A DNA stretch of 63,062 nt from a virus. The position numbers and the translations under genes were made by a program. The notes beneath the pieces were generated by a model. The model ran no database searches. It was given only the letters and a program-made list of their open reading frames with translations, and was not told the DNA's origin. The stretch spans positions 1 to 63,062 of IMG/VR virus record IMGVR_UViG_3300033429_000003. The stretch is one strand, 5' to 3'. This document shows positions 1,979 to 21,222 of this stretch, piece by piece (the first letter of the stretch is position 1; each line of letters begins with the position of its first letter).

Positions 1979-2045
1979 AGCGGAAGTCTGAGCTTCCGAG
2001 CCTAGACAGAGACCACTGTCCGGAATGGCAAGAAGGGAGTCGGAG

Positions 2046-5000
2046 ATGGCGCACCTGCAGCCGGTCGACGCATTTGAAACTCTCAAAGATAGAACTTCCA
2101 AGACAATATCGAGCTACTTCCCGATCGAGGGTAAGAAGAGTACCCTCCGGGCCAAGAAGGTGTGGGTGGACGACAACCTTGCATGGGGGGACTTGCGTAC
2201 TCAGAAAGACGCAAAGCTCAAGGGGCGCTCGTGGGCGGTACCTGTCCGGGCGGAGCTCGAGTTGGTCGACAAGACTACGGGGAAGGTGAAGGACACCCAG
2301 ACGGTCACTCTGGCGCAGATACCCAAGATAACAAATCGGTACAGCTACATCGTGGGCGGCAACGAGTACCAGGTGACCAACCAGTTCCGCTTGAAGGCGG
2401 GGGCGTACACTCGGGTGCGGGCCAACGGTGAGCTGACCACGCAGTGGAACCTTCCTGAGGGCGGGCTTGGGTTCGACGTCAACTTCGACCCTCGAACAAA
2501 GAAGATGACGATGCGACACGTGGGGAAGGGGTCCAACATTGCCCTGTACCCTGTGCTCAAATCCTTGGGGATGGACGACGACACGATAGAGAGGCAGTGG
2601 GGCCGGGAGATATTCAACGTCAACAAGAAGGAGAACGAAGAGGTGGCCCTCAAGAAGTTCTACAAGACCTTCAAGGGCACCAACCCCCCGAGCATGGATG
2701 CAGCGAAAAGCCTGGTAGTGGAGGAGATGGGGCGCACCAAGCTTCGTCCGGATGCCACGGCTCTCACCCTGGGTAAACCGTTCACACAGGTTACGGGCCC
2801 TGCTCTGATGGCGGGTTCCCGCAAGCTATTGCGCGTGTCCCGTCAGGAAGAGAAGCCAGACGACCGCGACGCGCTGCAGTTCAAAGACATTCTCTCCGCT
2901 GAAGACTTGGTGAGCGAGCGCTTGGAGCGTGGGCAGACCCGACGCGTCATCACTCGGAAGATAACCAACACGTTGGACAAGCGTACCAAGGTGAAAGAGA
3001 TCGTAAATCCCGACTTCTTTGGGAAGCCGGTCAGGTACTTCTTCACCAACTCTACCCTGTCAGAACGGTCTGACCAGACCAACCCGGTCAGTTTCCTCGT
3101 TGGGAACCGGCGGACAACCATAATGGGCGAGGGCGGCATCTCCAGCGACTTGCAGCTCAGCAACGAAGCCAAGTCCGTCAACCCCAGCCACATGGGTTTT
3201 CTCGATGTTATCCAAACTCCCGAGGGGGAAAAGACCGGTATTTCTCTGCAGTTAGCGATGGGCGCCCGGAAGTATGGGAAGGAGCTGAAGACTCAGGTCT
3301 ACGATGTCAAGAAGGGCAAGAACATCAACGTGACGCCGCTTCAGGCTTTGAAGGCCAACCTGGCGTTCCCCGATCAGTACAAGTGGAAGGGAAACAAGGC
3401 GACGCCTGTGGGCCCGTCCATCAAGGTGGCTGACAAGAATGGGGATATAACGACCGTCAAGCCCTCAGAGGTAGATTACGTCATGAAGTCGGCGAAGGGC
3501 GTCTTTGACATCGGGGCTAACATGATTCCCTTTCTGCAGAACGACCAAGGGAATCGAACGATGATGGGGGTGAAGCAGATCGAGCAGGCTATCGGCCTAG
3601 CAAGTAGGGAAGCTCCTCTGGTTCAGGCAGCCGGTGAGGGGGGCCGCACGGCTGAAAGGATCGTGGGTCGATTCGTGTCCCAGAGGTCCCCGGTAGACGG
3701 CGTGGTTTCCAGGGTAACCACGGAAGCCGTTTACGTGAAGGACGCGGCAGGCCGGGAGCACGAACGTCAGATCTACGACAACTTCCCGCTCAATGAGGAC
3801 AAGAGCAAGCTCCACTCCACCCCCTTGGTGAAAGTGGGAGACACCGTTAAGGCGGGGCAGACTTTGGCTGACTCCAACTTCACCCGTGGGGGTGACCTGG
3901 CGTTGGGCACCAACCTGCAGGTCGCCTACATGCCCTACAAAGGCTACAATTTCGAGGACGGAATTGTTGTCTCGGAGTCGGCAGCAAAGAAGCTGACCTC
4001 CGACCACATGTTTCGCCAGGGCATCACGGCTGAGAAGAACACCATCCTCAACAAGAAGAAGTTCCTTGCTGAGACGGCCGGGTCAGTTACGCAGGAACAG
4101 GCTGACAAGCTTGACGACTTCGCTATCGTCAAACCTGGGATGACGGTAAACCAGGGAGACGTTCTTATCGGGGCAATGAAGAAGCAGGAGGTCACCCCCG
4201 AGCAGAAGAAGCTTGGTATGTTCTCCAAATCCTTCCTACGGCCGGCTAGACCGAATGCTCTTCGGTGGGAGAAGGAAACACCGGGTGTTGTCACGCGAGT
4301 GGTCAAGCACGGGAAGGACACAACTGTCTACGTTAATACTCAGGCCCCTGCTACCATCGGGGACAAGATCGTGGGTCGGCACGGTAACAAGGGGATCATA
4401 ACGCACGTCTTGCCAGACCATGAAATGCCTAAGACCAAGAGTGGTAAGGTGGCGCAGGTACTGCTGAACCCAACTGGGATCCCCTGTTACGACGAGGAGA
4501 CGGAGTTCCTGACCACGGACGGTTGGGTGGCGGCCCAAGACATCTCTATGGACCATACCTTCGCCACCCTGAACACAAAGACGTTGGTCATGGAGTTCCA
4601 GGAACCTGAGGAGGTGTACCACATGCCCCACAAGGGGAGCATGTACTGCCTCAGGAACCAGCAGTTGGATATGATGGTGACCCCCAACCACAAGCAGTTC
4701 TCTGCTCGCCGGGGCAACCAAAAGCTGTACGGGTCCATTGACCTAGATGACCCGGAGCTGCCTTCCCTCTTCGAGTTGAAAGAGTCTAGGGAGATCGCAC
4801 GTGAGCCGCGAAGGTACTTGAAGGCTGCCAAGTGGCAAGGAGACCGAGAGTTCTTTTACTACATACCGTCCGGGTCTCCGTCAGGGGGTGGCAAGCCCGC
4901 AGCAGGGATCAATGTATCCTCGATAAGGTGGGCAGAGTTCATGGGCTGGTACCTCTCTGAGGGCAGCACCTATTTCAACCAGTCCAACTATGGGTACATC

Positions 5001-8000
5001 ACTGAGATATCTCAGAGTCGATACGCGAACCCCACGAAGTACGAGAGGGTAGAGGCCCTTGTCCAGTCGATGATGGGAGACGCCTACGAGGCGGTGGAGA
5101 GGGGCATAAGGATCAAGCACAAGGGGCTGTACGAAAAGCTATCTCCTCTGGGGAGGGCGAGGGACAAGTTCATACCTAGAGAGATTCTGGACATGCCGCC
5201 AGACCACTTGAGCGTGTTCTTGGGCGCTCTCATGGCAGGAGATGGTTCCGAATATTGGAATGAGGAGACCGGGCATTACGGGTGTAGGACGTACTGGACG
5301 TCGTCCAAGCTGCTTGCGGACGGCGTCCAAGAGGTTGCTGCAAAACTGGGGATAGCTGCCAACATCAAGAGGGAGACTCGGAATGGGGATGAGGCCTGCT
5401 ACTACCTCTCCTTGAGTGGCAGTCGCATAGCCCCTTGGGTGAACTGGTCTACCACTACCAAGGCGCACCAGTACGAAGAGTGGGTCCAGTACGACGGAAT
5501 GGTCCACTGTACTACGGTACCGAACGGAGTCTTGTTGGTACGCCGCAATGGCAAGGCCGTATTCAGCGGGAACAGCCGTATCAACGTGGGGCAGGTCTTG
5601 GAAACGGCTGCGGCCAAGATAGCGGAGAAGACGGGGAAGACTTACGAGGTCAACAACTTCGACCCTAACAACAAGGACTATACCAGGAATCTGTTGAAGG
5701 AGCTCAAAGCACACGGCATCAAGGACACTGAGGAGATGGTGGACCCGGCGACGGACAAGTCTTTTGGCCAGGTTCTCTTTGGCCCCCAATACATTCTCAA
5801 GCTCCACCACACTGCGGCCAAAGGTCTGATCGCTCGCTCACGGCACTCCTACGATTCGAACATGGTTCCTACCCGTGGTGGCCCGAAGGGTGGTCAGACC
5901 CTGGACGCCATGGGCATGTACGCTTTGCTGGCGCACAACGCTAGGGAAAATATCCGTGAGGCTCAGACCTACAAAAGCGACAATAACGACAAGTTTTGGG
6001 AGATGATTCAGTCTGGAGACTCACCACCGACGCCGAAGGTTCCTTTCGTCTTCAAGAAGTTTGAGGGGTACCTCCGGGGTATGGGCGTGGACACCGTTAA
6101 GGAGGGCAACGACTTAATCTTGCAGCCCTTGACGGACAAGAAGACTCTCGAGATGAGCAATGGCGAAATCAAGAACCCGAGCCATTCACTACGAGCGAAG
6201 GACCTAAACCCTGAACGCGGTGGTATATTCGACCCCAAGGTTACAGGGACAAAGAGTGTCACCAAAGGACTTGGCGCCAAGTGGTCTCACATAAAGCTGT
6301 CCGAGCGTATGCCGAACCCCGTCTTTGAGAAACCGATTGCTGCCTTGTTGGGCATCCCCGAGAAGCACGTGGGGGCCGTCGTGGCGGGAAGGAAGGAACT
6401 CGAAGGCAAAACGGGGCCAGAAGCTATCTCCAGCGCCTTGAACAAGATCAATGTCGACAAGGAGGCGGAGGCCTTAAGGGCTGCTCTGCCTACCATGCGA
6501 ACGTCGCACTTGAACAAGGCCAACAAGAAGATGAAGCACCTACGTGCTCTACAGAAGGCGGGAATGAGTCCTGTGGACGCGTACATGATGAGGCACCTGC
6601 CCGTGCTGCCACCTACTATGAGGCCCGTCAGCATACGGGACAGCGGAGACCTTGTATTCGACGACCTCAACAATCTCTACACCTCTATCGGGAAGACCAA
6701 CTACCAACTCAACACCATGGACCCGGCGATGCCGGAAGAGGAGAAGAGGCCTCTACAAGAGTCCATGTATGATGAGCTCAAGGCCCTTACCCTCACGGGG
6801 ACAGAGAGCCAGGGCAGACATCTAAACGGTATCGCTGAAACCATTGCGGGCAGGGGAAGCCCCAAGGAAGGGTTCTTCCAGCAGAAGGTGATCGGCCGTC
6901 GGCAAGACCTGTCGATGCGGGGCACCATTGTTCCTGAACCGTCTCTTTCCCTGGACGAGGTGGCTATTCCTCGCAAGGCTGCCGCCGAGCTCTACAAGCC
7001 TTTTGTCGTGGCCAACCTTGTGAGTCGCCGGGGCTACTCTCCACTTATGGCCCAACAGAAAGTGAAGGAAGACGGGGTGGAATCCAGGTCAGCTTTGGAC
7101 GAGGTGGCGGCAGAGCGCCCACTTTTACTCAAGCGCGACCCCGTACTTCACAAGTATGGCGTGCAGGCGTTCAAACCCAAGCTGGTGTCCGGGCAGGCAA
7201 TCAAGATCCATCCCCTGGCTACCACGGGATACAACGCAGACTTCGACGGGGACAAGATGTCTGCCTACGTCCCTGTCAGCCAGAAGGCCGTCCAAGAAGC
7301 CTGGAAGATGATACCTTCCAACAACTTGTTTAGTCCCTCTACCGGCTTCGTGATGTTCAAACCAACCCAGGAGTCCATGCAAGGGTTGTTCAAGCTGACA
7401 GAGATGGGCAAGAAGACCAACAAGTCCTTCAAGACTGCCGGTGCGGCCGCGCGGGCTGTAAAGAGTGGGGAGATAGGACTCGACGATGTAGTTACGATTC
7501 AAGACTTCAGTGGGGTGTCCAACTTGGACAAGCTGGCAGCGGCCCCCAAGCGGACGACGGTGGGCCGAATGATGGTCTACAACGCGCTCCCAGAAGAGGT
7601 CCGATCAGAGTCTATGCTGACTGACAAGAACTTCGTCCTCAATAAGGGAAACCTGCAAGACCTGCTGACGAACGTGGCTGCGATGGATAAGGGGAGCTTC
7701 GGCACGGTGTCCGACAAACTCAAAGACTTAGGCAACTCCCGGTCTACAGGGATGTCTATAAGCTTGGAGGACTTCCTGTCAGACCATGAAGACCGGGATA
7801 GGGTCATGAATCAAGCCCGTAAGGTGGAGAATCAGATCCGAGCTGACAAGAAGCTTTCCCCTGCAAAGAGGGATGAAAAGATAGTACAGCTCTACGTCGG
7901 CGCCGGGAAAGAGATAGACGCAAAGACCAAAGCAAGGGCTGACGCCAAGCCCAACCGGATGTACGATTGGGTACGGTCGGGGGCCAGAGGAAGTTGGGAC

Positions 8001-9308
8001 AACTACAAGCAGATGGTTGTGACTCCTCTCTTGGTTGCAGATACTAAAGGCAAGCCGATCCCTGTCCCCATCGACAGGTCCTACTCGGAAGGACTGGACA
8101 TCGGGTCCTACTGGGCTTCGATGTACGGGGCCCGCATGGGGACCCTCAGCAGGACAGAAGGGACCTGGCGCCCCGGGTACATGTCAAAGCAGATGATGGC
8201 CTCAACCATGAACCAGATGGTTGTCTCGGACGACTGCGGTACCAAGAAAGGGCTGGCGCTACCCCTCGATGAGCGGGACATACTCGGACGCTTCACCGCC
8301 AACGATATCCGCCTGAAGAAGGGCGGCAAGGCAGAGGTTATCCCCGCTGGGACCCTTGTTGATCCCGACGTGGTCAATCGCCTGAAGAACAACCGGGTCA
8401 CCGAGGTACCCGTACGCACCCCGCTCCGCTGCCTGCACGGGAAGGGGATGTGTGCAAAGTGCTATGGCCTGGACGAGAACGGGCAGCTGCCCCAGAAGGG
8501 GGTGAACGTTGGAGTGATAGCGGCCCACGCTCTAGGTGAGCCCGCCACTCAGCTCAGCATGAACGCGTTTCATACGGGAGGTATAGTAGGTGCCAAGGGG
8601 ACAGCAGCGCAGGGGACGTTTGACCGAGTGGACCAGCTGCTGCAAGTCCCCACCATCCTGCCGGGGTCTGCCACGCTCTCCAAGGTAGACGGCACGGTAG
8701 ACAAGGTCGACAAGGACCCCGCCGGTGGGTGGAGCGTCTACGTCAGCGGGCAGCGGCACTACGTCCCCCCGACAAGAGACCTGATTGTGAAGAAGGGGCA
8801 GCCCGTGAAGAGGGGGGAGTCTGTGTCCTCTGGCGTGAAGAACCCGAGAGAGATGCTACCTCTTACGGGCATGCCCACTGTTCAGCGGTACATCACCGAC
8901 GAGCTCCACGGCATCTACAAGGAAGTAGCCCCGGTGAAGCGCCGCAACACGGAGACCTTTGTCCGTGCGATGACCAACTTGAGCAAGGTGACCGACCCGG
9001 GCGACCACGACACCTATCTTCGTGGAGACACTGTTCCTGCTACGGAGGTGGCCCAGTACAACAGTCAGAAAGCATCGGACGCTAAGCCAGTACGCGCTGA
9101 CCCCATCCTACACGGTGTGTCCACCCTACCCCTGGAAGTACAGACGGACTGGCTGGCCCGCATGCAGGCTACCAACCTTCGACGTACCGTTCTGGACGCG
9201 GCGGCAGAGAGGTGGGGGTCCGCCCTGCATTCTACGCATCCGGTGCCCGGCATGGCTTACGGTGCGGAATTTGGTAAGGGGACCCCAGAGAAACCTTGGC
9301 TGTACTAG
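2046..9308 (+). CDS. Single-chain RNA polymerase, beta and beta' fused, with an intein
   Basis: A 2420-residue protein joining the two catalytic halves of multisubunit RNA polymerase. In the beta half, FEDGIVVSE (residue 636 on) and GDKIVGRHGNKG (772 on) match the beta double-psi barrel and its conserved lysines. In the beta' half, NADFDGD (1730-1736) is the metal-binding catalytic loop. C2064, C2129, C2136 and C2139 match the second beta' zinc site, followed by GVIAAHALGEP and FHTGG of the trigger-loop region. An intein fills residues 814-1176, so the mature chain is about 2057 residues, shorter than bacterial beta plus beta' (about 2750 in E. coli). I chose ATG 2046 over 2025 because AAGGGAG lies six bases before it. 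The catalytic motifs are intact, so it should be active. No alpha, omega or sigma gene is visible nearby. Confidence 0.93.
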   Translation: MAHLQPVDAFETLKDRTSKTISSYFPIEGKKSTLRAKKVWVDDNLAWGDLRTQKDAKLKGRSWAVPVRAELELVDKTTGKVKDTQTVTLAQIPKITNRYSYIVGGNEYQVTNQFRLKAGAYTRVRANGELTTQWNLPEGGLGFDVNFDPRTKKMTMRHVGKGSNIALYPVLKSLGMDDDTIERQWGREIFNVNKKENEEVALKKFYKTFKGTNPPSMDAAKSLVVEEMGRTKLRPDATALTLGKPFTQVTGPALMAGSRKLLRVSRQEEKPDDRDALQFKDILSAEDLVSERLERGQTRRVITRKITNTLDKRTKVKEIVNPDFFGKPVRYFFTNSTLSERSDQTNPVSFLVGNRRTTIMGEGGISSDLQLSNEAKSVNPSHMGFLDVIQTPEGEKTGISLQLAMGARKYGKELKTQVYDVKKGKNINVTPLQALKANLAFPDQYKWKGNKATPVGPSIKVADKNGDITTVKPSEVDYVMKSAKGVFDIGANMIPFLQNDQGNRTMMGVKQIEQAIGLASREAPLVQAAGEGGRTAERIVGRFVSQRSPVDGVVSRVTTEAVYVKDAAGREHERQIYDNFPLNEDKSKLHSTPLVKVGDTVKAGQTLADSNFTRGGDLALGTNLQVAYMPYKGYNFEDGIVVSESAAKKLTSDHMFRQGITAEKNTILNKKKFLAETAGSVTQEQADKLDDFAIVKPGMTVNQGDVLIGAMKKQEVTPEQKKLGMFSKSFLRPARPNALRWEKETPGVVTRVVKHGKDTTVYVNTQAPATIGDKIVGRHGNKGIITHVLPDHEMPKTKSGKVAQVLLNPTGIPCYDEETEFLTTDGWVAAQDISMDHTFATLNTKTLVMEFQEPEEVYHMPHKGSMYCLRNQQLDMMVTPNHKQFSARRGNQKLYGSIDLDDPELPSLFELKESREIAREPRRYLKAAKWQGDREFFYYIPSGSPSGGGKPAAGINVSSIRWAEFMGWYLSEGSTYFNQSNYGYITEISQSRYANPTKYERVEALVQSMMGDAYEAVERGIRIKHKGLYEKLSPLGRARDKFIPREILDMPPDHLSVFLGALMAGDGSEYWNEETGHYGCRTYWTSSKLLADGVQEVAAKLGIAANIKRETRNGDEACYYLSLSGSRIAPWVNWSTTTKAHQYEEWVQYDGMVHCTTVPNGVLLVRRNGKAVFSGNSRINVGQVLETAAAKIAEKTGKTYEVNNFDPNNKDYTRNLLKELKAHGIKDTEEMVDPATDKSFGQVLFGPQYILKLHHTAAKGLIARSRHSYDSNMVPTRGGPKGGQTLDAMGMYALLAHNARENIREAQTYKSDNNDKFWEMIQSGDSPPTPKVPFVFKKFEGYLRGMGVDTVKEGNDLILQPLTDKKTLEMSNGEIKNPSHSLRAKDLNPERGGIFDPKVTGTKSVTKGLGAKWSHIKLSERMPNPVFEKPIAALLGIPEKHVGAVVAGRKELEGKTGPEAISSALNKINVDKEAEALRAALPTMRTSHLNKANKKMKHLRALQKAGMSPVDAYMMRHLPVLPPTMRPVSIRDSGDLVFDDLNNLYTSIGKTNYQLNTMDPAMPEEEKRPLQESMYDELKALTLTGTESQGRHLNGIAETIAGRGSPKEGFFQQKVIGRRQDLSMRGTIVPEPSLSLDEVAIPRKAAAELYKPFVVANLVSRRGYSPLMAQQKVKEDGVESRSALDEVAAERPLLLKRDPVLHKYGVQAFKPKLVSGQAIKIHPLATTGYNADFDGDKMSAYVPVSQKAVQEAWKMIPSNNLFSPSTGFVMFKPTQESMQGLFKLTEMGKKTNKSFKTAGAAARAVKSGEIGLDDVVTIQDFSGVSNLDKLAAAPKRTTVGRMMVYNALPEEVRSESMLTDKNFVLNKGNLQDLLTNVAAMDKGSFGTVSDKLKDLGNSRSTGMSISLEDFLSDHEDRDRVMNQARKVENQIRADKKLSPAKRDEKIVQLYVGAGKEIDAKTKARADAKPNRMYDWVRSGARGSWDNYKQMVVTPLLVADTKGKPIPVPIDRSYSEGLDIGSYWASMYGARMGTLSRTEGTWRPGYMSKQMMASTMNQMVVSDDCGTKKGLALPLDERDILGRFTANDIRLKKGGKAEVIPAGTLVDPDVVNRLKNNRVTEVPVRTPLRCLHGKGMCAKCYGLDENGQLPQKGVNVGVIAAHALGEPATQLSMNAFHTGGIVGAKGTAAQGTFDRVDQLLQVPTILPGSATLSKVDGTVDKVDKDPAGGWSVYVSGQRHYVPPTRDLIVKKGQPVKRGESVSSGVKNPREMLPLTGMPTVQRYITDELHGIYKEVAPVKRRNTETFVRAMTNLSKVTDPGDHDTYLRGDTVPATEVAQYNSQKASDAKPVRADPILHGVSTLPLEVQTDWLARMQATNLRRTVLDAAAERWGSALHSTHPVPGMAYGAEFGKGTPEKPWLY
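4485..5573 (+). mobile_element. LAGLIDADG intein in the beta part of the RNA polymerase
   Basis: A 363-residue in-frame insert beginning with Cys and ending with Asn, followed by Ser as the first downstream host residue. It splits the highly conserved beta motif NPTGIP/SRINVGQVLE, which becomes contiguous after splicing. Block B shows TPNH about 65 residues in. Two endonuclease motifs are visible, FMGWYLSEGS and LGALMAGDGS, so this is a full intein with a LAGLIDADG homing domain. The C-terminal end reads FSGN, with Gly instead of the usual penultimate His, a known but less common variant. Splicing must work for the polymerase to function. Confidence 0.92.
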
Positions 9309-18210: not shown

Positions 18211-21200
18211 ATGCCAATCGTTGAGCTCAAATCAGAAACCACTCCGTACGACTATATGGAAGAGGATGAGAGTGTTCATAGCGTCGAGTGGGCAGACGAG
18301 GAAGAGGAACGGCAGCACTACGACTTGGACGTGCCTGCGGGAGTCCGGCCGTCGGAGTTCGTGGAGTTCGCGGTTTACATGCCGGGGGGCGGGGACCTCC
18401 ATCAGTTTAGCTTCAGGGACCGCCAGTACCTGAAGACCATCTACAACTCGCCCGCAAAGCGCAAGCTCTTGATGGCGGGACGTCAGGTAGAAAAATGCGA
18501 GTGTTTACAAGGACTTACGTCACTCAACTCTGGGTACCTCAAGAAAGCCGGGGACGTCAAGATAGGTGATTGCCTGGCCTCGATGACTCGTCCGGACACA
18601 GAGATGGGCACGGGCCGTGTGTCATGGCTGTCGAAGATATACACCAAGCCATGTGTCAAGATAACTACCAGGCAGGGGCACGAGACGTGGGTGGCGAAGA
18701 CGCACCCCATGCGTCTGTTTGGTAGATGGGTGCCCGCAGGGGAATTGACGTCAGGTACTCGTCTGTCCGTGGTGCGGAAGTGCGGAGAGTTCCTCCAGCT
18801 CAAGGAAAGCGTCGAGCGCATCAAGGCCACGGCGTACTTGCTGGGAGACGGAGGCCTGGGAGGCCCCTGTGTCTTGTTCCATTCCAAGTCTGCTACGAGG
18901 ATGCAGGAGTTCAAGAGCCTGGTGGCGGGTGTTGGGGACACGGGTCGAGTGGAGGGCGACCACTCCTACCGCGTGCATCGGGGGATTATCCGAGGATGGC
19001 TAGAAGATGATGGTCTCCTAGGCAAGCTCTCTGCGGACAAGTTCATTCCCGAGTGGGTGTTCAACCTCTCTAGGAAAGACACCGCCCTGTTCCTACGCAC
19101 TCTCTGGTCCACAGATGGCCATATCAAGAAGGTCTCCCGGTCCAAGCACGACATTGTCTACTCCTCCATCGCCAAGCGCCTGGTCCTCGACGTTCAAGCC
19201 CTCTTGTGGAAGTTCGGCATCCCGACCGGGCTGCGCTCTTACGTGCCCGAGGTCTATGAGGGGGCTGACAAGGTGCACTGGATGCTGCGGGTTGAGACTC
19301 AGGATGGCATCAACCGTTTCCTCAGCGAGATATCTAATGTGGGCCGCGACGGGTACTTGGTGGCCTCTGCAGACATGCCCGAGAACAACAATCGGGACAC
19401 TTACCCGATCGAAATCAATGACCTGCTCGTGCGCATCCAGGAGAGCGGAGACGATTCGTGGCAGGGGCGCCGAGGTCGGAGCCTACATGCTTCGGGCCTA
19501 CGTAGGACGCTGAAGTCCCCGCCCACCCGGGGCAAGCTTGAGAAGTATTGGGACTTCTTCCTCGAAGGTGGATACGACCAGCAGCTAGTAGACGAGTTGA
19601 GAGCGCACATCTTCACAGACCTCTATTGGGATGAGATAGAAACCATCGAAGATGTAGGGGAGCAGGAGTGCGTAGACTTTGAGGTAGAGGACACGCACAA
19701 CTTCGTGCTGGATGGGTTCGTCACCCACAATAGCACCCTGCTGGGCAACGAGAACTTGGCGTACATGGCTATCACCAACTACTTCCGGTGCCTGTACGTT
19801 AGCCCTTCTAACACGCAGACCAAGGTCTTCAGCCGGGACCGCATTCAGGAGCCCATTGATACCTCTCCTGTGCTGAGCCAGTTTACCAATGGCAGGCTGC
19901 TCAAGAACGTCTTCGAGAAGAAGTTTGTCAACGGTTCTCAAATCACCATGCGGTTCGCGTTTCTCAACGCAGACCGCGTGCGCGGCATTCCTGCGGACAA
20001 GATTACGATCGACGAGTTCCAGGACATCCTCCTGGACAACGTGCCTGTCATTGAGGAGTGCGCTTCGCACTCCGAGTACAAGTTGTTCACCTATGCGGGC
20101 ACACCGAAGTCGTTGGACAACGCCATCGAGCACTACTGGGCCCGCTTCTCTACTCAGAACGAGTGGTCGGTCCCCTGCAAGCATCACGGCACGCCGAAGA
20201 ATTCGTCTTCGTGGTTCTGGAACGTCTTGGCGGAAGACAACATAGGAGACGACGGGCTTATCTGCAGCAAGTGCGGCAAACCCATTTCTCCGAAAGACCC
20301 CGACTGCTCATGGGTGTCACTCAACCCCAACCCGAAGGTGGAGAAGCCCTACGAGGGGTACCGCATCCCCCAGTTGATGGTTCCCTGGATAGATTTCAGC
20401 GACATCAAGGACAAGCAGAAGAAGTACAGCCGGGCCAAGTTCTACAACGAGGTGCTCGGCCGCAGCTACGACTCTGGTACCCGACCCCTCACGCGCACCG
20501 ACATGATTCGGAACTCCTGGTCTGAGCTGTCGATGACGTACTACCGAGAAGTCATCCAATATTGCCAGCAATATCCAGTATTTATGGGACTTGACTGGGG
20601 CACGGGAGAGGGCTCGTACACGGTGATGTCGCTTGGTGGGTACCTTCCGTTTGCCCCGGATCTCTTCACGTTCTTCTACCTCTACCGGTTCGAAGGGATG
20701 GAGTCCGAGCCCAAGGAGCAACTCCGCATCATCAAGCAGCACGCGCGAGAGTTCAATGTGCGCTACATCGGGGTTGACTACGGCGGCGGTTTCTGGCCCA
20801 ACGACGAATTGGTACGTGAGTTCGGTGCAGACAAGATCAAGAAGTACCAGTGGGTTGGCAACGTCAAGAAGAAGATTCAGTTCGACCCTAAGCTAGGCGT
20901 CCCACGGTTCTTGTGTCACCGTACTGAGGTCATGTCGGACATGTTCAACGCCGTCAAGCGGGGCAACGTGTTCCGCTTCCCTCGGTGGGAGGAATTCGAG
21001 GACCCCTACGCCAGGGATTTTCTCAACATCTTCTCGGAGTACAATGAGCGAATGCGGATAAACGTCTACAAGCATGCTCCGGGGAGCCCGGATGACACGT
21101 TCCACTCATGCTGTTTCGGATTTTTGGCTTCCTTCTATTATCGTGCGCGCCCAGACGTTATCCTACCCTCAAAGGAAGTGGAGAGGGAATACAGGTCCAA

Positions 21201-21222
21201 TGAACCGAATGACATCACGTGA
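18211..21222 (+). CDS. terL: Terminase large subunit, interrupted by an intein
   Basis: A 1003-residue precursor; the mature protein is about 591 residues. It is the ATP-driven DNA packaging motor and genome-cutting nuclease. Walker A GRQVEK/ST is rebuilt by splicing (K95 next to S508). Walker B reads ITIDEFQD. The RNase H-like nuclease domain shows FMGLDWG, YIGVDYGGG and a distal PDDTFHS acidic motif. A CSKCGK and CKHHG region in between gives a possible zinc finger. GGAAAG precedes the start. All catalytic motifs appear intact. No small terminase subunit could be identified in the window. Confidence 0.95.
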   Translation: MPIVELKSETTPYDYMEEDESVHSVEWADEEEERQHYDLDVPAGVRPSEFVEFAVYMPGGGDLHQFSFRDRQYLKTIYNSPAKRKLLMAGRQVEKCECLQGLTSLNSGYLKKAGDVKIGDCLASMTRPDTEMGTGRVSWLSKIYTKPCVKITTRQGHETWVAKTHPMRLFGRWVPAGELTSGTRLSVVRKCGEFLQLKESVERIKATAYLLGDGGLGGPCVLFHSKSATRMQEFKSLVAGVGDTGRVEGDHSYRVHRGIIRGWLEDDGLLGKLSADKFIPEWVFNLSRKDTALFLRTLWSTDGHIKKVSRSKHDIVYSSIAKRLVLDVQALLWKFGIPTGLRSYVPEVYEGADKVHWMLRVETQDGINRFLSEISNVGRDGYLVASADMPENNNRDTYPIEINDLLVRIQESGDDSWQGRRGRSLHASGLRRTLKSPPTRGKLEKYWDFFLEGGYDQQLVDELRAHIFTDLYWDEIETIEDVGEQECVDFEVEDTHNFVLDGFVTHNSTLLGNENLAYMAITNYFRCLYVSPSNTQTKVFSRDRIQEPIDTSPVLSQFTNGRLLKNVFEKKFVNGSQITMRFAFLNADRVRGIPADKITIDEFQDILLDNVPVIEECASHSEYKLFTYAGTPKSLDNAIEHYWARFSTQNEWSVPCKHHGTPKNSSSWFWNVLAEDNIGDDGLICSKCGKPISPKDPDCSWVSLNPNPKVEKPYEGYRIPQLMVPWIDFSDIKDKQKKYSRAKFYNEVLGRSYDSGTRPLTRTDMIRNSWSELSMTYYREVIQYCQQYPVFMGLDWGTGEGSYTVMSLGGYLPFAPDLFTFFYLYRFEGMESEPKEQLRIIKQHAREFNVRYIGVDYGGGFWPNDELVREFGADKIKKYQWVGNVKKKIQFDPKLGVPRFLCHRTEVMSDMFNAVKRGNVFRFPRWEEFEDPYARDFLNIFSEYNERMRINVYKHAPGSPDDTFHSCCFGFLASFYYRARPDVILPSKEVEREYRSNEPNDIT
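18496..19731 (+). mobile_element. LAGLIDADG intein in the terminase Walker A motif
   Basis: A 412-residue insert starting at Cys96 and ending with the canonical His-Asn (VTHN), with Ser508 as the downstream nucleophile. It lies exactly between Lys and Ser of the P-loop, so the unspliced protein cannot bind ATP. Block B-like KTHPMR, endonuclease motifs TAYLLGDGG and FLRTLWSTDG, and the block F FVLDGFVTHN are all visible, so both splicing and homing domains look complete. Confidence 0.94.

Follow-up and report, generated by a model that had tools for sequence, protein, structure and literature searches.

The window, the whole 63,062-nucleotide stretch of viral DNA analysed here (IMG/VR record IMGVR_UViG_3300033429_000003), carries an open reading frame (ORF) at 2025-9308 in which RNA polymerase beta domains come first and beta' domains second (Pfam Rpb2_6 3e-53, Rpb1_2 4e-26, and Rpb1_5 3e-21; NCBIfam beta/beta'). 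Judged by its sequence, the product is a tailed-phage RNA polymerase in which beta and beta' are fused; it combines the beta and beta' domains of the multisubunit-type phage enzymes and has the catalytic NADFDGD motif. Vibrio phages D69 and D181 and Salmonella phage Arash carry a similar RNA polymerase, in one or two pieces. The polymerase domains (Pfam, NCBIfam) flank an insertion on both sides: residues 821-1183 of the ORF, 363 aa without a stop, preceded by ...VLLNPTGIP and followed by SRINVGQVLE, all within one 2427-aa frame. The initial annotation had called this insertion an intein at 4485-5573, and these coordinates are exact: the translation starts CYDEETEFLTTDGW and ends NGKAVFSGN. 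The locus is laid out as follows, all on the + strand.

2025..9308, +: precursor ORF, fused RNA polymerase beta-beta' plus intein; 2427 aa, or 2064 aa without the intein
2025..4484, +: N-extein, most of beta, ending ...LLNPTGIP; relatives with an empty site align gaplessly
4374..4394, +: GRHGNKG active-centre motif of beta (E. coli K1073 region), 30 residues upstream of the insertion
4485..5573, +: intein, 363 aa (translation, alignment of relatives, predicted structure)
4485..4526, +: splice block A, CYDEETEFLTTDGW, with nucleophile Cys1; C1, T6, T10, and G13 invariant
4680..4691, +: splice block B, TPNH (TxxH; T66, H69); T66, P67, and H69 invariant
4911..5432, +: LAGLIDADG homing endonuclease domain, about aa 143-316 (Pfam; I-DmoI aligned to model residues 143-316)
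4938..4964, +: first LAGLIDADG motif, FMGWYLSEG, acidic E159 (alignment)
5217..5246, +: second LAGLIDADG motif, FLGALMAGDG, acidic D253 (alignment)
5502..5546, +: splice block F, VHCTTVPNGVLLVRR, with Cys342; V340 and C342 invariant, R353 nearly so
5547..5573, +: splice block G, NGKAVFSGN, with the Gly362-Asn363 end; G362 and N363 invariant
5574..5576, +: +1 nucleophile Ser (AGC) of the C-extein, equivalent to E. coli beta S1105 by gapless alignment
5574..9308, +: C-extein, the end of beta followed by the fused beta' (ORF translation, Pfam, NCBIfam)
7233..7253, +: NADFDGD catalytic motif of beta', intact (sequence)

Pfam Intein_splicing gave no match to the polymerase insert, and the splice blocks were assigned from an alignment of 16 inteins, the window intein and 15 relatives. 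The conserved blocks on which the initial annotation had staked its reading all align across this set, in which C1, T6, T10, G13, T66, P67, H69, C342, G362, and N363 are invariant. The terminal Asn363 is followed by Ser at +1 in the window and by Thr in the corresponding inteins of three other loci (L025, L041, and L043). An AlphaFold2 model of the intein (pLDDT 90.2, pTM 0.89) is closest among solved structures to the TliVMA intein (7qsu; Z 27.4, 310 aligned, rmsd 3.9), followed by 2cw7 (Z 26.8), 1dq3 (21.4), and PI-SceI (21); all are endonuclease-bearing inteins, and with solved inteins matching at Z 20-27 the predicted fold is of the HINT type. TliVMA and PI-SceI (PDB 7qsu, 1vde) have this fold and a two-motif LAGLIDADG domain in common with the window intein, but they are only about 15-20% identical to it and reside in vacuolar ATPases. 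Inteins of this class have the usual His-Asn end. Phage inteins match the window intein over its full length, with E-values down to 3e-27. Together with the structural matches and the gapless empty sites in 78 of 80 related loci, this makes the identification as an intein far beyond chance. Class 3, whose members have no Cys/Ser at position 1 and carry the W-C-T triplet, was considered and rejected: Cys1 is invariant, and although the family has a block-F Cys, its position G:5 is variable.

The LAGLIDADG domain had been described as intact, and the evidence agrees: Pfam LAGLIDADG_3 matches at 3.7e-9, both motifs keep their acidic residues (LSE159G and GD253G), and the endonuclease half of the predicted model matches I-DmoI on its own. 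We weighed the possibility that the intein has nonetheless decayed and no longer splices, leaving the polymerase dead or split. The penultimate His is missing (Gly362 takes its place), as are the block-F His and the Intein_splicing match, all of which would suit decay. Set against this are an open frame, invariant splice residues, the retained acidic residues of the endonuclease, and a polymerase that retains GRHGNKG and NADFDGD. Moreover, comparison with the L025 intein (dN 0.22; dS 2.2, which is saturated) indicates that the intein is constrained like the extein. We regard decay as the most improbable of the readings considered here.

The Gly-Asn end had been flagged as atypical. It is real, but it is not special: it is common to all full-length relatives whose junction was read, 20 of the 22 related inteins listed, and the remaining two are blast alignments that stop short of the end. 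One of these two (L005/L032) reads CGN/S once extended (a slash marks a splice junction here and below). The same end occurs in five isolate-phage inteins, located in ThyX, terminase, DNA polymerase, portal, and an unannotated Lak phage gene. In class 1 inteins a His at the penultimate position is frequent rather than obligatory. By sequence comparison, then, the missing penultimate His is an old family trait and not a local oddity, and since Gly-Asn is the rule in the family it gives no sign of special chemistry in the window intein. The ThyX intein of Corynebacterium phage P1201 belongs to this family: it is 345 aa long, starts CYSSDTEVLTSEGW, ends VRRNGKPVWSGN/S, is of the LAGLIDADG type, and is 35% identical to the window intein over matched pieces. 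It differs in its host gene (thymidylate synthase) and insertion site, and falls outside the clade described below. Against efficient splicing stand the missing penultimate and block-F His, and another Gly-Asn intein, Ceu ClpP, reportedly spliced poorly in E. coli.

The same phage carries a second intein (18496-19731, +; 412 aa, C...HN/S) inside a terminase ORF (18211-21222). It interrupts the large-terminase Walker A motif (GRQVEK/STLLGNE), is of the usual His-Asn type, and matches Pfam Intein_splicing (1e-9) and LAGLIDADG_3 (1e-10). At L025, a neighbouring 1113-aa ORF (L025:999-4337, +) has a LAGLIDADG stretch of its own (E 3e-15) that probably marks a further intein.

The insertion site, the NPTGIP/SRIN junction that we call site C, is equivalent to E. 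coli beta P1104/S1105 in a gapless alignment (query 26-100 on 1051-1125). It lies 30 residues past GRHGNKG, directly ahead of the Ser and of the counterpart of E. coli R1106, an arginine that contacts the incoming nucleotide. The initial placement of a LAGLIDADG intein exactly in a conserved beta motif is borne out by the Pfam match, the fold match, and the gapless empty sites. Because the insertion adjoins active-centre residues (GRHGNKG, S1105-R1106), the unspliced precursor is probably inactive, and we can soundly infer from the insertion site that the polymerase needs splicing to work.

A timing or environment switch had been proposed on this basis. Under that reading, splicing would be slow or would depend on redox, temperature, or metals, and the polymerase would mature at a set time or under certain conditions only. 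In its most explicit form, a redox- or temperature-sensitive splicing step involving Cys1 and the invariant Cys342 would gate maturation and so time the polymerase-dependent genes. The position in the catalytic core, the probable inactivity of the precursor, the potential redox sensitivity of Cys1 and the block-F Cys342, and the absent penultimate His all lend themselves to such a switch, and other inteins have been reported to be stress-responsive (PMC6195587, PMC6805012). However, the Gly-Asn end and the block-F Cys are family-wide and recur in terminase, ThyX, portal, and DNA polymerase inteins; their presence in unrelated host genes means that they are not tuned to the polymerase.

The distribution of the intein also bears on this question. 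In a first residue-by-residue reading of relatives, nine were uninterrupted at site C and L025 was occupied. A wider search, in which left and right flanks were located separately, covered 80 polymerase loci, some of them near-duplicates. Relatives with an empty site, which the initial annotation had suggested seeking, make up 78 of these: 77 have a gap of exactly zero and the other, L096, carries an intein elsewhere. The two occupied loci, L126 and L138 (contigs of L041 and L043), have inteins of 1089 and 1098 bp, and with the window and L025 they bring the occupied alleles to four. Empty-site relatives join exactly at P followed by S, T, or G. Over the segment that follows the site, two of them, L028 and L026, share 64-65% identity with the window, and the polymerases of L025 (occupied) and L028 (empty) share 85% protein identity. 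With so many relatives lacking the intein, including an 85% identical polymerase, and with a phylogeny that points to homing, the timing or environment switch finds no support and is very unlikely.

L096 was rejected as a further site-C occupant: its intein lies 26 residues upstream, after HGNKGIIT, and its site C, where the +1 residue is Gly, is uninterrupted. A strict scan for the junction pattern N/[SCT]R[MIV]N.GQ..E matched three viral contigs (those of L041, L025, and L043). The same pattern gave 12 matches in a one-genome-per-species collection, none of them an intein junction, so that no cellular RpoB intein at site C was found there. Cellular RpoB has Ser at the residue equivalent to +1. 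Across the 80 phage loci (L061-L140) the +1 residue is Gly in 56, Ser in 13, and Thr in 11, with Ser or Thr at the occupied loci, in keeping with what splicing requires chemically. Gly at this position, which may reflect defence or drift, would bar intein splicing at site C.

The histories of intein and polymerase differ. The four site-C inteins, which we compared as other occupants of the same beta site, form one clade (support 100/99). In that clade L041 groups with the window and L025 to the exclusion of L043 (100/99), whereas in the polymerase (extein) tree L041 and L043 are sisters (100/99). Forcing L041 and L043 together in the intein tree is rejected (p-AU 0.02), with the rooting behind this conflict depending on distant outgroup inteins. 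In the polymerase tree, occupied L025 and empty L028 are also sisters, and well supported branches force three gains or losses of site-C occupancy. The window and L041 are 66% identical in their inteins and 47% in their polymerases, with distances of 0.56 for the intein and about 1.28 (summed branches) for the extein. A fast-evolving extein may account for the lower intein distances: between L026 and L031, at another site (site B, below), the intein path (about 1.0) is likewise shorter than that of the extein (about 1.3).

These data can also be read as vertical inheritance, in which one ancient insertion was lost repeatedly, without recent homing. A single intein clade at site C agrees with this, one gain plus two losses could account for the three changes in the extein tree, and the intein may simply evolve more slowly. 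Yet the conflict between the intein and extein trees (p-AU 0.02) speaks against it, exact and repeated loss from an essential motif is hard, and each additional empty relative raises the number of losses. We consider vertical inheritance with repeated loss unlikely, though the least so of the alternatives. Patchy occupancy, the 85% identical pair, and the tree conflict fit homing between phage lineages, as far as sequences can tell.

Taken with the predicted structure, the evidence makes it very probable that the insertion is a full-length, class-1-like LAGLIDADG intein of the Gly-Asn phage family, maintained as a selfish mobile element within the beta portion of this fused phage polymerase. 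This selfish-element reading explains all of the observations. We infer both splicing and cutting from the anatomy. The precursor would fold, and the N-S shift at Cys1 would be helped by TPNH; Ser+1 would then take over the chain, Asn363 would cyclise despite lacking the customary His before it, and the polymerase would be joined at NPTGIP-SRIN. The endonuclease would cut the empty site in co-infecting relatives, into which the intein would be copied.

Site C is not the only target. Members of this phage polymerase family carry inteins at six or more further sites, within conserved motifs or close to them:

After GGIP: L033
After TPE (site B, TPE/S): L026, L031, L032, L033, and others
After HGNKGIIT: L096
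Next to NADFDGD: L031, L041, and L043
Two points three residues apart in the QLSMNAFHTGG region: L026 and L031

Flank spacing suggests occupancy of TPE in 5 of 76 loci, NADFDGD in 7 of 78, and QLSMN in 6 of 75, counts that include several near-duplicates and for which only some junctions were read. L031 carries three inteins within one polymerase. The site-B inteins (L026, L031, L032, and L033) share the family, Gly-Asn end, and host gene of the window intein, but form a separate clade (100/99) at another site and are 27-32% identical to it. Sites B and C carry separate intein lineages, which makes this polymerase a repeated intein target, like eukaryotic RPB2.

Polymerase genes of this family are interrupted in other ways too. 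In D181, a group I intron (L039:2446-3357; Rfam RF00028, 100.7 bits) breaks the gene, and a homing endonuclease gene comes after it; in its relative, Vibrio phage D69, the gene is uninterrupted. Rfam at gathering scores found zero RNA elements in the whole window, and hence no sign of an intron. In L032, L033, and L040, the fused polymerase is split within beta' into two ORFs with other sequence or genes between them; in L032 and L033 the split falls after extein position about 1465. Split inteins were rejected as the cause in these two, as the ORF ends and starts are polymerase sequence. L032 also has an in-frame insertion of ~340 aa near its N-terminus (residues about 248-590) that is not intein-like.

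Inteins in RNA polymerases have precedents. Goodwin 2006 (PMC1635734) describes six intein sites near the active centre of eukaryotic and algal-virus RPB2-type genes. These RPB2/RPA2/RPC2 inteins occupy several highly conserved sites in the homologous second-largest subunit, and an RPO intein fragment, EhV163, also ends in Gly-Asn; the host here differs in being a phage fused beta-beta' enzyme. Green-algal chloroplast rpoB inteins (PMC5784728) resemble our case in their bacterial-type RpoB and differ in their plastid hosts. The literature searched contained nothing direct on phage RNA polymerase inteins or Salmonella phage Arash; the window intein is without earlier report there, and the kind of element is already known.

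With this finding, the range of RNA polymerase inteins grows to include a family of fused beta-beta' phage polymerases, one invaded at no fewer than seven conserved sites. The occupied and empty alleles of this family offer natural material for measuring how inteins home from phage to phage. In addition, the variation among Ser, Thr, and Gly at +1 allows one to test whether a host becomes intein-proof through loss of the nucleophile.
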